Positions 8,864 through 33,631 of a DNA stretch of 64,000 bases are shown here, one piece after another. Below the pieces are notes generated by a model. The model saw only the letters and a program-made list of their open reading frames with translations, was not told the origin of the DNA and ran no database searches. Origin of the DNA: Desulfococcus multivorans (GTDB lineage Bacteria > Desulfobacterota > Desulfobacteria > Desulfobacterales > Desulfococcaceae); contig NZ_CP015381.1 of the NCBI RefSeq assembly GCF_001854245.1, forward strand, positions 1,360,001-1,424,000, given 5' to 3'. Position 1 is the stretch's first letter, and every line of letters starts with the position of its first letter. Both the position numbers and the translations under genes were made by a program.

Positions 8864-8870
8864 TTATCAT

Positions 8871-8944
8871 CTAACCTCCGACTTTCACAGCCGTATCCTC
8901 CCGGCACCGCTTTCCGGTCACCATCATGAAAGTCGAAAGTTGAG
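8871..8944. mobile_element. MITE-like element, copy A (74 bp)
   Basis: The right terminal repeat GAAAGTCGAAAGTTGAG is at 8928-8944. The left terminal repeat at 8871-8886 is degenerate (one deletion and two substitutions against CTCAACTTTCGACTTTC). The interior CCTCCCGGCACCGCTTTCC and CACCATCAT are shared with copy B. It is flanked by TTATCAT (8864-8870) and TTATCAG (8945-8951), a 6/7 direct repeat read as an aged target duplication. It lies about 100 nt upstream of the amino acid transporter start. No coding capacity. Confidence 0.8.
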
Positions 8945-9043
8945 TTATCAGTCTCGTATTCGTTCTCAAAAAACCATTTACTTTGTGAGGCGGGCGTTAT
9001 AAATAGATGTAATCTACTTAAATCATTATCAAGGAGGTTGTCG

Positions 9044-22124: not shown

Positions 22125-22380
22125 CCTTGATTTCGTCGATGGTGTCATAGAACCAAAGAATATCTTCGATGGAAAGGCGGCCGGCCTTGACCGGCGCCCG
22201 TTCCGTTCCGTCTTTTTTTGTCAGGATCCGAGGACCGATCTGTACCTTGGGTTCCCCATCTCCATATTGGTTGATGGTTACGATCAAACCGGTTTCTTCA
22301 CATTTCCATTTCTTCAGAACTTTGTCTTTCGAGGGATCAAAAGCCATAACAACTCCTCAATACGGTGTTTGTTTCATGTG

Positions 22381-22456
22381 CTCAACTTTCGACTTTCGTA
22401 GGCCGTTTCCTCCCGGCACCGCTTTCCGGTCACCATCATGAAAGTCGAAAGTTGAG
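22381..22456. mobile_element. MITE-like element, copy B (76 bp), best preserved
   Basis: Perfect 17-bp terminal inverted repeats: CTCAACTTTCGACTTTC at 22381-22397 and its reverse complement at 22440-22456. The interior is shared with copy A. It is flanked on both sides by TCATGTG (22374-22380 and 22457-22463), a perfect 7-bp direct repeat. The right flank contains the TGA stop codon of glyS (minus strand), so the insertion sits exactly at the 3' end of that gene. No coding capacity; a transcript would fold into a hairpin. Confidence 0.88.
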
Positions 22457-24541
22457 TCATGTGGATATTTTGGAAAAATCGGCGAATCGTTCAAACATCT
22501 TTGCAATCTTTCGGAGCAGGGCAAGGCGGTTGTTGCGGCGCCCGATATGATCCGTCATCACCATAACGCCGTCGAAAAAGGCGTCCACCGGGTTCTTGAG
22601 GGATGCAATATCGAGGAGCGCCTCCTCGAAGCGGCCTTCCGACAACCGATGTTGAACACGGTCGTTTACGGTCTTGAAGGCGGAGAAAAGCCCGGATTCG
22701 CTATCGTGTTCGAACAGGCTTTCGTCCACTCCGGAAAGATCGGCTCCCTCGGCGTCGCTTTTTTTGATGATGTTCACAACCCGCTTGAAAGCCGCCGCCA
22801 GAAGATCGAAGTCGGTTTCGGCCTTGAGTTTCTCGAGAGCCGCAACGCGTTTCCAGACATGGGGAATATGATCGATGGAGATGTCGGTCACCGATGCGAT
22901 AACGTCCCTGGAATAACCGTCCTCTTCAAGGATGTGTGCCATACGTCCCTTCAGGAATCCGTAGACCGCGCCGGCGGTCTCTTCGGCAGGCCGCGTACTC
23001 ACGTCGGCGAAGGCGGCTACACTTCGATCAATCAGTGCTTCCAGGGAAAACGAGAAGTCGTAGGCGTTCATGATCTGCAGGATCCCTATGCCTTGACGTC
23101 TTAAAGCGTAGGGGTCGGAGGCGCCGGTGGGGGCCAACCCGATGCTGAAGCACCCGCAGATGGAATCGATCTTGTCGGCGACGGCGAGCGTCGCACCGGT
23201 CGGTGAAGAGGGTAGGGGCCCCCCGGAGTATGTGGGGCGATAATGTTCTTCAATGGCCGTCGCCACCGCATCCGGCTCTCCGGCGAGCGTGGCGTAGATG
23301 CGTCCCATGATGCCTTGGAGTTTGGGGAATTCGATCACTACCTGGCTGACCAGGTCTGCTTTGCATAGCCGGGCTGCCCGGGAAACGTCCGCCTTGAGGT
23401 CGCCATCAAGGACAGTGGTGTCGGCGATGAATTCGGCCAGTTGCTGAACGCGCCGGCATTTGTCGTAAACGGAACCCAATTGGGCCTGAAAAAGAACCTT
23501 TTTCAGCTTCTCGACCCATTTCTCCATGGGAGTGGCCGTATCCCCTTTGAAGAAGAAATTTGCGTCGGAAAGTCGGGCTCGGATGACGCGTTCGTGGCCG
23601 GTGGTTACCAACGCCATATCCCGCGCTCGAGTATTGTTGACAACGATAAAACAGGGCAGGAGTTTCCGTTGATCATCCACCACTGCAAAATATTTTTGAT
23701 GTTCTCGCATGGCGGTGATGAGTACCTCGTCCGGAACCTCCAGAAAGCGGTCGTCGAATCTGCCGACCGAAACCACCGGAAACTCGATGAGATTCTTGAC
23801 CGTATCAATCAGTTCCGCATCCGGGAGAATGACGCCGCCCAACGCCTTGGCCGTCCGGGAAATTTCCTCTGCGACGTGTTTTCGGCGCTCGTCAAGATCC
23901 GCTATCACGTCCGCGCGTCTCAACGCATCGATATATTCGCCGGGATGATTGATCCGGATCTTGCCGGGGTGCATGAAACGATGTCCACAGGTTTGGTTTC
24001 CGCTTTGTACGTCTCCGTAAACAAAGGGGATGACATCATTGCCGAGAAGGGCGAGGATCCACCTGACGGGACGGGCGAAGGTCACGTTCAGTTCACCCCA
24101 TTTCATGCTTTTGGGGAAGGGTATCGCTGCTATGACGTCCGGTAGTATGCCGGACAGAATTTCCCGGGTAGGGCGGATCGTCTCGATCTTATCGGCGCAG
24201 AGATAACTCCCTTTGTCCGTTTCCTTGATGCGGAGGTCGTCAATGGAAACCCCGGCTTTTTCGGCGAATTTGACGGCGGCCATGGTCGGCTTCCCGGCAT
24301 CGTCGAAGCCGATCTTCCGCGGGGGGCCGGTCAGTTCCGTCACGAGAGGTGTCTGAGCGGCCGCCACATCGACGATTTCAACGGCAAGTCTTCTCGGGGT
24401 GCCGTAAACGATTGCGGCGCCGTGTGTGATGCGGGCATGGGTCAGCTGCCCCGTCATCAATGCGGAAAAGGCCTGCAAGGCGGGCTCGATATAGCCGGCC
24501 GGGAGTTCTTCCGTTCCGATTTCAATTAATAACGTATCCAT
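22457..24541 (-). CDS. glyS: Glycine-tRNA ligase beta subunit
   Basis: Beta chain of the alpha2beta2 glycyl-tRNA synthetase, involved in tRNA recognition; 694 aa. It begins MDTLLIEIGTEELPAGY, as the family does, contains the HD-like central region and YRPTYSGGPLP motif, and ends in an anticodon-binding-like helical domain. The start ATG 24541 has AAAGGGA upstream and lies 2 nt after the glyQ stop; the open frame further upstream reads into glyQ. Its TGA stop lies within the target duplication of MITE copy B. Confidence 0.97.
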   Translation of the reverse strand: MDTLLIEIGTEELPAGYIEPALQAFSALMTGQLTHARITHGAAIVYGTPRRLAVEIVDVAAAQTPLVTELTGPPRKIGFDDAGKPTMAAVKFAEKAGVSIDDLRIKETDKGSYLCADKIETIRPTREILSGILPDVIAAIPFPKSMKWGELNVTFARPVRWILALLGNDVIPFVYGDVQSGNQTCGHRFMHPGKIRINHPGEYIDALRRADVIADLDERRKHVAEEISRTAKALGGVILPDAELIDTVKNLIEFPVVSVGRFDDRFLEVPDEVLITAMREHQKYFAVVDDQRKLLPCFIVVNNTRARDMALVTTGHERVIRARLSDANFFFKGDTATPMEKWVEKLKKVLFQAQLGSVYDKCRRVQQLAEFIADTTVLDGDLKADVSRAARLCKADLVSQVVIEFPKLQGIMGRIYATLAGEPDAVATAIEEHYRPTYSGGPLPSSPTGATLAVADKIDSICGCFSIGLAPTGASDPYALRRQGIGILQIMNAYDFSFSLEALIDRSVAAFADVSTRPAEETAGAVYGFLKGRMAHILEEDGYSRDVIASVTDISIDHIPHVWKRVAALEKLKAETDFDLLAAAFKRVVNIIKKSDAEGADLSGVDESLFEHDSESGLFSAFKTVNDRVQHRLSEGRFEEALLDIASLKNPVDAFFDGVMVMTDHIGRRNNRLALLRKIAKMFERFADFSKIST

Positions 24542-24543
24542 TT

Positions 24544-25416
24544 TTATCCCTTTTGCAGTAACGGGAAACCCATCTCTTCCCGTTGTTTCAGGTATGCTTT
24601 GGCACAGGCCCGGGTCAGATTTCGTATTCTCGCGATGTATCCGGTCCTTTCGGTCACGCTGATGGCACCGCGGGCATCCAGCAGGTTGAAGGTATGAGAG
24701 CATTTCAGACAGTATTCGTAAGCGGGAAGTACCAGGGATTGTTGAATGATGCGCTCGGCTTCGGCCTCGTAAGCATTGAAAAACCTGAAGAGCATGTCAA
24801 CGTCGGCCACCTCGAAATTGTAGGTCGATTGCTCTACCTCCTGCTGGTGATGGACGCGACCGTAAGTGATTCGGTCATTCCATTTCAGATCGTAAACATT
24901 GTCCACCCCTTGTAGATACATGGCGATGCGCTCGAGACCATACGTCAGTTCCACCGGAATGGGATGAAGCTCGATGCTGCCGCAAAGCTGAAAATAAGTG
25001 AACTGAGTGATTTCCATACCGTCCAGCCAGACCTCCCATCCCAGGCCGGACGCACCCAGGGTAGGGGATTCCCAGTCATCTTCCACGAACCGGATATCGT
25101 GCTCCAGGTAGTCGATACCCAGGCGCTTCAGACTTTCCAGGTAGAGCGCCTGAATGTCATCCGGAGAGGGTTTCAATATGACCTGATACTGGTAGTAATG
25201 CTGCAGCCGATTGGGATTTTCACCATATCTTCCGTCCGTCGGACGCCGTGACGGCTGAACGTAGGCAACGTTCCACGGCTCCGGCCCGAGTGACTTCAGA
25301 AGGGTATTGTGGTGAAAGGTCCCGGCACCTACCTCCAGATCGTAGGGCTGGGTCACGACGCATCCCTTTTGCCCCCAATAGGTATTGAGTGATTGAATAA
25401 TATCCTGAAAATTCAT
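24544..25416 (-). CDS. glyQ: Glycine-tRNA ligase alpha subunit
   Basis: Catalytic alpha chain of glycyl-tRNA synthetase, 290 aa, a class II enzyme core. Typical motifs are [55 protein letters not shown] and [28 protein letters not shown] lies 7 nt before the ATG. Followed at once by glyS. No glycine riboswitch was recognised upstream. Confidence 0.98.
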
Positions 25417-33012: not shown

Positions 33013-33254
33013 TCTTTTCTCTGCGCCCATCCCACTGTGCCGCCCATCTCTTTCCCAGAATCTATACCATAAAACAAATGGGAGTCAAAGGCAGACATAT
33101 CCCTCTTCAGGTAATCTCCCGAAATGCGGTATGGGTGTCCATACGATCGATGGGTATGATGAATCCGGAATCAGGATGATGGGTTCGAAGAAACTGTTGC
33201 ATTTGAAGAAAAGATAACGGAAAATTAAAAATGTTGGCGTGAGCAAAGAGGATA
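33013..33254. other. Intergenic region, no convincing gene
   Basis: About 240 bp between the tRNA terminator and MITE copy C. A 71-codon minus-strand frame starts inside the MITE and crosses this stretch, but it has no ribosome site and no recognisable domain. It may be a gene remnant. Confidence 0.6.
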
Positions 33255-33493
33255 CTCAACTTTCGATTTTCATAGGCCGGCACCGGGAGGATACGGCCCA
33301 CGCCCCACGCGGTTTCGTTCAAGTGCCGCTAAAGCTTGCTCCGGGCGGCCCGGAAACTCGCTTGCGCTCAAACAGTCCGGGCCGCTGATCCGCCGCGGCG
33401 CTCAAGCGGCACTAAAACTCACCGCTGAAGGGGCGCGGACCGTATCCTCCCGGCACCTGTATCCGGTTACCATCATGAAAGTCGAAAGTTGAG
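33255..33493. mobile_element. MITE-like element, copy C (239 bp, long form)
   Basis: Left terminal repeat CTCAACTTTCGATTTTC (33255-33271, one mismatch) and right repeat GAAAGTCGAAAGTTGAG (33477-33493). It is flanked by GAGGATA (33248-33254) and GAGGGTA (33494-33500), a 6/7 direct repeat. The outer parts match copies A and B; the centre holds extra nested palindromes, including CACCGGGAGGATACGG against CCGTATCCTCCCGG, AGTGCCGCT against AGCGGCACT, and TCCGGGCGGCCCGGA. No coding capacity. It lies about 130 nt upstream of the decarboxylase start. Confidence 0.83.
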
Positions 33494-33631
33494 GAGGGTA
33501 TTGAAATGTGATCCAACGGACGGCGTTCAGGCCTCCAGCGGATATGTGCGTTCTCCCGGGCGGGCATCCGACAGGTCAAATCTTTGCGGTCCTGGGTGGC
33601 ACCGCCGCAACATAGAGGAAGGATCTTTGCA

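Follow-up and report, generated by a model that had tools for sequence, protein, structure and literature searches.

Three short elements with inverted ends in the genome of Desulfococcus multivorans very probably belong to one MITE family that is restricted to its genus and mobilised in trans. They lie in the window, the 64,000-nt stretch analysed here, which spans positions 1,360,001-1,424,000 of a genome consisting of a single contig of 4,455,399 bp. An earlier note had attributed them to MITE-like transposition. This reading is now supported by 7-bp duplications surveyed across 131 copies, by a target consensus, by an empty site at one of the three copies and by identical copies at different sites.

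Results

The three copies, A, B and C, were all found with the ends and flank repeats described for them, and the interior that they share is real. Copy A (8871-8944, + strand), recognised by its ends and the shared interior, is a MITE 74 bp long that falls into the 76-bp class and has a degenerate left end, CTAACCTCCGACTTTC. Its target duplications, which like the others are recorded without strand, are TTATCAT (8864-8870) and TTATCAG (8945-8951) and differ by one mismatch. Copy B (22381-22456, + strand), recognised by its ends, is a 76-bp MITE in which both 17-bp ends are perfect; it forms a compact hairpin (fold z -6.6) and is flanked by a perfect duplication, TCATGTG, at 22374-22380 and 22457-22463. 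It sits between glyS (glycyl-tRNA synthetase beta, 22457-24703, - strand) and a small downstream frame, and since the glyS stop codon (TGA on the - strand) lies inside the right duplication, the stop was preserved. Copy C (33255-33493, + strand), recognised by its ends and its fold, belongs to the full-length class: it is a 239-bp near-perfect palindrome with a GC-rich core and a DNA fold of -78.8 kcal/mol (z -10.4), between GAGGATA (33248-33254) and GAGGGTA (33494-33500), again with one mismatch. The 17-bp end occurs five times in the window at up to 3 mismatches, against 0.29 expected, and 0 shuffles reached five. The inverted ends run about 3 bp beyond these 17, to CTCAACTTTCGACTTTCAT, and their outermost base is C or T.

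Across the whole genome, the end CTCAACTTTCGACTTTC was found 360 times at up to 2 mismatches, whereas the reversed control pattern was found once. At no more than 1 mismatch there were 248 ends, and the exact query CTCAACTTTCGASTTTC gave 98. Within stretches fetched round the end sites we paired 131 elements of 53-258 bp, 15.3 kb in sum, with inverted ends of 17-20 bp; the identical pairing procedure applied to the reversed control returned 0 pairs. The fetched sequence amounted to 1.10 Mb for the duplication counts and 1.23 Mb finally, so that about 28% of the genome was read directly, and because sampling was aimed at end sites the density of elements in it is no genome average. Half of the 360 ends suggests a genome-wide total of perhaps 180 elements. 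The main size classes are 59 bp (17 copies), 63 bp (16), 66 bp (8), 76 bp (22), 142 bp (4) and 238/239 bp (21), with singletons besides. As is characteristic of MITEs, the elements are short and non-coding with terminal inverted repeats (TIRs), and Rfam held no match to them. Short simple-repeat arrays, such as GGCTGAAGACTGAAG, adjoin MITEs in intergenic sequence near C1 positions 620420, 1270850 and 2430350.

The flanks of the 131 elements carry exact repeats of 7 bp in 41 cases, of 6 bp in 15 and of 8 bp in 5; exact repeats of 4 or 5 bp were absent. When one mismatch was allowed, 68 of the 131 had matching 7-bp flanks, compared with a mean of 1.7 and a maximum of 5 in shuffled sets, and in about half of the elements a recognisable duplication is gone. 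The target duplication is thus of fixed length (7 bp, some 6 or 8), as expected of MITEs. At sites with exact 7-bp repeats the target is a symmetric TWWWWWA within an AT-rich stretch of about 17 bp. Only 18 of 113 testable insertions fall inside long stop-to-stop frames; of 2000 positions drawn at random from that sequence, 1494 do. Insertion targets are AT-rich and mostly intergenic.

The 238-bp form is a nearly perfect hairpin, and every shorter main class corresponds to this form less one internal block. Aligned to the 238-bp consensus, the class consensuses agree with it at 58/59, 58/63, 63/66 and 74/76 positions, and the deletion junctions share 2-5 bp of microhomology in four of five classes. 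By these alignments, the main size classes are nested deletions of one 238-bp hairpin. Movement has been recent: the 238-bp copies at 237211 and 496637 are identical but have different duplications, both perfect (TAATTGA and GTTCAATG).

Two TIR-bounded copies of 1927 bp are 238-bp MITEs interrupted by a 1689-bp IS110-family element, inserted in both copies at one identical internal position of a MITE that is otherwise normal. These inserts (C1:401943-403631 and C1:887573-889261; L267 and L268) have 1 difference between them and entered the MITE core at GCAAGCTTTAG^CGGCACTTG, where ^ marks the junction. In this IS110 group the four left junctions have the sequence TAG^ACATAATG, which is what RNA-guided targeting by IS110 with a CT/AG core should produce. 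Beside one IS110-bearing MITE, at C1:889425-890769 (L091), the right half of the MITE and the start of the adjacent gene are in tandem repeat, with junctions at CT (GGGACG^CTAAAGC and CATACCG^CTAAAGC). These repeats are possibly duplications made by the IS110 recombinase, or else an assembly artefact.

We compared D. multivorans with its sister species, the other genome of the genus (G001, the uncultured Desulfococcus sp. MAG CAJXSB01). At the copy B locus the sister species reads GTTTCATGTCAGATGGATATC, whereas D. multivorans reads GTTTCATGTG[76 bp]TCATGTGGATATTT; the former has a single target without the element, and this one site is hence an empty site. Copy C is likewise missing from the sister genome, in an intergenic flank too diverged for base-by-base alignment. 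A search for paralogous empty sites within the D. multivorans genome yielded a few weak matches, which by eye lie in repeat-rich flanks. The earlier note had named two results that would speak against transposition, the lack of an empty site and further copies without 7-bp duplications; neither occurred, with copy B as the one clean empty-site test.

The sister species has elements of its own, of 59, 68-70, 75 and 85-87 bp along with 238-bp forms. One common position of their ends is altered from C to G, giving CTCAACTTTCGAG[T/A]TTC, and by this comparison the set is a separate expansion with a changed end. In one orthologous gap both species have an element but the duplications differ, indicating independent insertions in the two species.

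Neither the 389 genomes of the order nor a GTDB-wide scan revealed the family in any other genome, save for isolated single ends. With paired 11-bp ends, the GTDB scan matched only the uncultured Desulfococcus MAG and one palindrome in Lachnoclostridium. The latter, the sole match outside the genus (Lachnoclostridium sp. MSJ-17, L232:64-136), is short, has the ends TTCAACTTTCGAT and is probably due to chance. Plasmid and phage collections held no match to the 238-bp element, and the core motif was absent from viral contigs. From this distribution, the MITE family appears to be restricted to the genus.

Discussion

What moves these elements? A DDE transposase, we infer, acts on the family. Supplied in trans, it would bind the inverted ends of about 20 bp, excise or copy the MITE, and join it to a staggered cut in an AT-rich, mostly intergenic target, which would leave the duplication of 7 bp (6-8). 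Of the common forms the longest, the near-perfect palindrome of 238/239 bp, is very probably the parent of the other classes. The 59-, 63-, 66-, 76- and 142-bp classes very probably arose from it by internal deletion, mostly at 2-5-bp repeats, and each spread afterwards.

It had been noted that the window holds no transposase and that a partner element must lie elsewhere; our search found none bounded by these ends, which, like the elements that lack a recognisable duplication, weighs against the proposed mechanism. MITEs usually have the same ends as an autonomous IS, although this is no strict requirement. No transposase lies between paired ends in the sequence read, which covers 155 of 158 exact ends and, for nearly all of these, 1.5 kb or more of flank. 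The model PF01609 should cover IS4-type transposases, and a whole-genome scan with it recovered only IS1634, IS1182 and IS1380 types plus fragments, with no IS4 partner and no transposase that has MITE ends. The IS4_1 model found no cognate transposase in the sister genome, and a search of 58 relatives with PF14706 (Tn5/IS50-like) gave none in D. multivorans or the sister genome. Multi-copy IS4 elements from two genomes of the same family (G002 and G005) were set aside; their ends are of CAATGCC- or CATACG-type and differ from those of the MITEs. The genomic islands of D. multivorans named in PMC5109826 contained no partner. We also rejected a 1433-bp TIR-flanked stretch (C1:2346106-2347538, L108), which lacks a duplication and holds an ordinary-looking gene, by eye ATPase/HTH/cupin-like, between two inverted MITE ends. 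We infer that the source element was lost, that it sits in a part of the genome that was not read, or that its ends no longer match. It is unlikely that the MITEs are driven by a resident or domesticated transposase that has itself lost its ends, in the way that RAYTs drive REPINs but as a DDE enzyme that leaves target duplications.

The earlier note could tie the ends to no named IS family. By a published consensus they can now be tied to the ISPepr1 subgroup of IS4. This subgroup has ends of the form YT-AA-YTT---A, 7-8-bp duplications and AT-rich targets (PMC2266710, Table 1). The MITE ends, (C/T)TCAACTTT, match 7 of the 8 conserved positions, including C or T at base 1, and the MITE family shares both the 7-8-bp duplication and the AT-rich target. 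In contrast to ISPepr1, the MITEs have no transposase and differ at position 13, where the A of the consensus is unmatched; the link runs through the published consensus alone, and no cognate transposase of IS4 (YREK) type that shares these ends was found, either by PF01609 in the MITEs' own genome or by IS4_1 in the sister genome. The match is thus a lead and no proof of membership, and we put the chance that the putative transposase is of the IS4-family ISPepr1 type at about even.

Other movers can be weighed against the same evidence. That resident IS1634-family elements mobilise the MITEs is improbable: their duplications are exactly 5 bp in five readable copies (TACTC, TTCAT, TACAA, TCTAT and CCTTG) and never the 7 bp of the MITEs. 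These elements are nonetheless present in several copies in D. multivorans, with ends that also start with C or T and have TTT at positions 7-9, and 9 of 15 positions of one of their TIRs, CTCGGGTTTCGGGTC, are common to the MITE end, from which their TIRs otherwise differ. The 1927-bp forms, with MITE TIRs at both ends, a TTATAA duplication on one copy and one intact 368-aa transposase frame, might be taken for autonomous elements whose IS110-family transposase moves the family. However, each of the two is a 238-bp MITE, otherwise normal, with the insert at one and the same point, and a relative of the insert was found elsewhere without a MITE, which refutes their autonomy. IS110 recombinases are not known to make 7-bp duplications at long TIRs, and we give this idea almost no weight.

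Compact hairpins (copy B, z -6.6) that are intergenic and of high copy number could also be REP/REPIN-like palindromes that a RAYT (Y1 HUH) transposase moves, or else RNA hairpins under selection and no transposons. As is well established, Y1/RAYT movement leaves no target duplication, whereas 7-bp duplications are strongly enriched here, and the nested deletions remove interiors while retaining both ends; we consider these explanations very improbable. The likeness to REPs and REPINs lies in being intergenic high-copy hairpins that are also struck by IS110-family insertion sequences (compare PMC1525189). REPINs differ in lacking target duplications and in depending on RAYTs.

Trans-mobilised MITEs remain the reading that we favour, and known examples are similar. 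MITEAba12 (PMC6382973) and the P. gingivalis MITEs (PMC4596501) are likewise short, non-coding, TIR-bounded and present in many copies; the D. multivorans family differs in that its partner IS was not found and in having five nested deletion classes, each of which has spread. The element is well formed but of an ordinary kind, and it stands out mainly for its recent movement and for a mover gene that was not found.

Altogether, this is a clean and populous bacterial MITE family with a readable history, in which one palindromic parent underwent repeated internal deletions followed by separate waves of spread. The expansion in the sister species, with its altered end, is an independent part of that history. 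Given copies this recent and a partner that is missing, the source of the transposase becomes a testable question.
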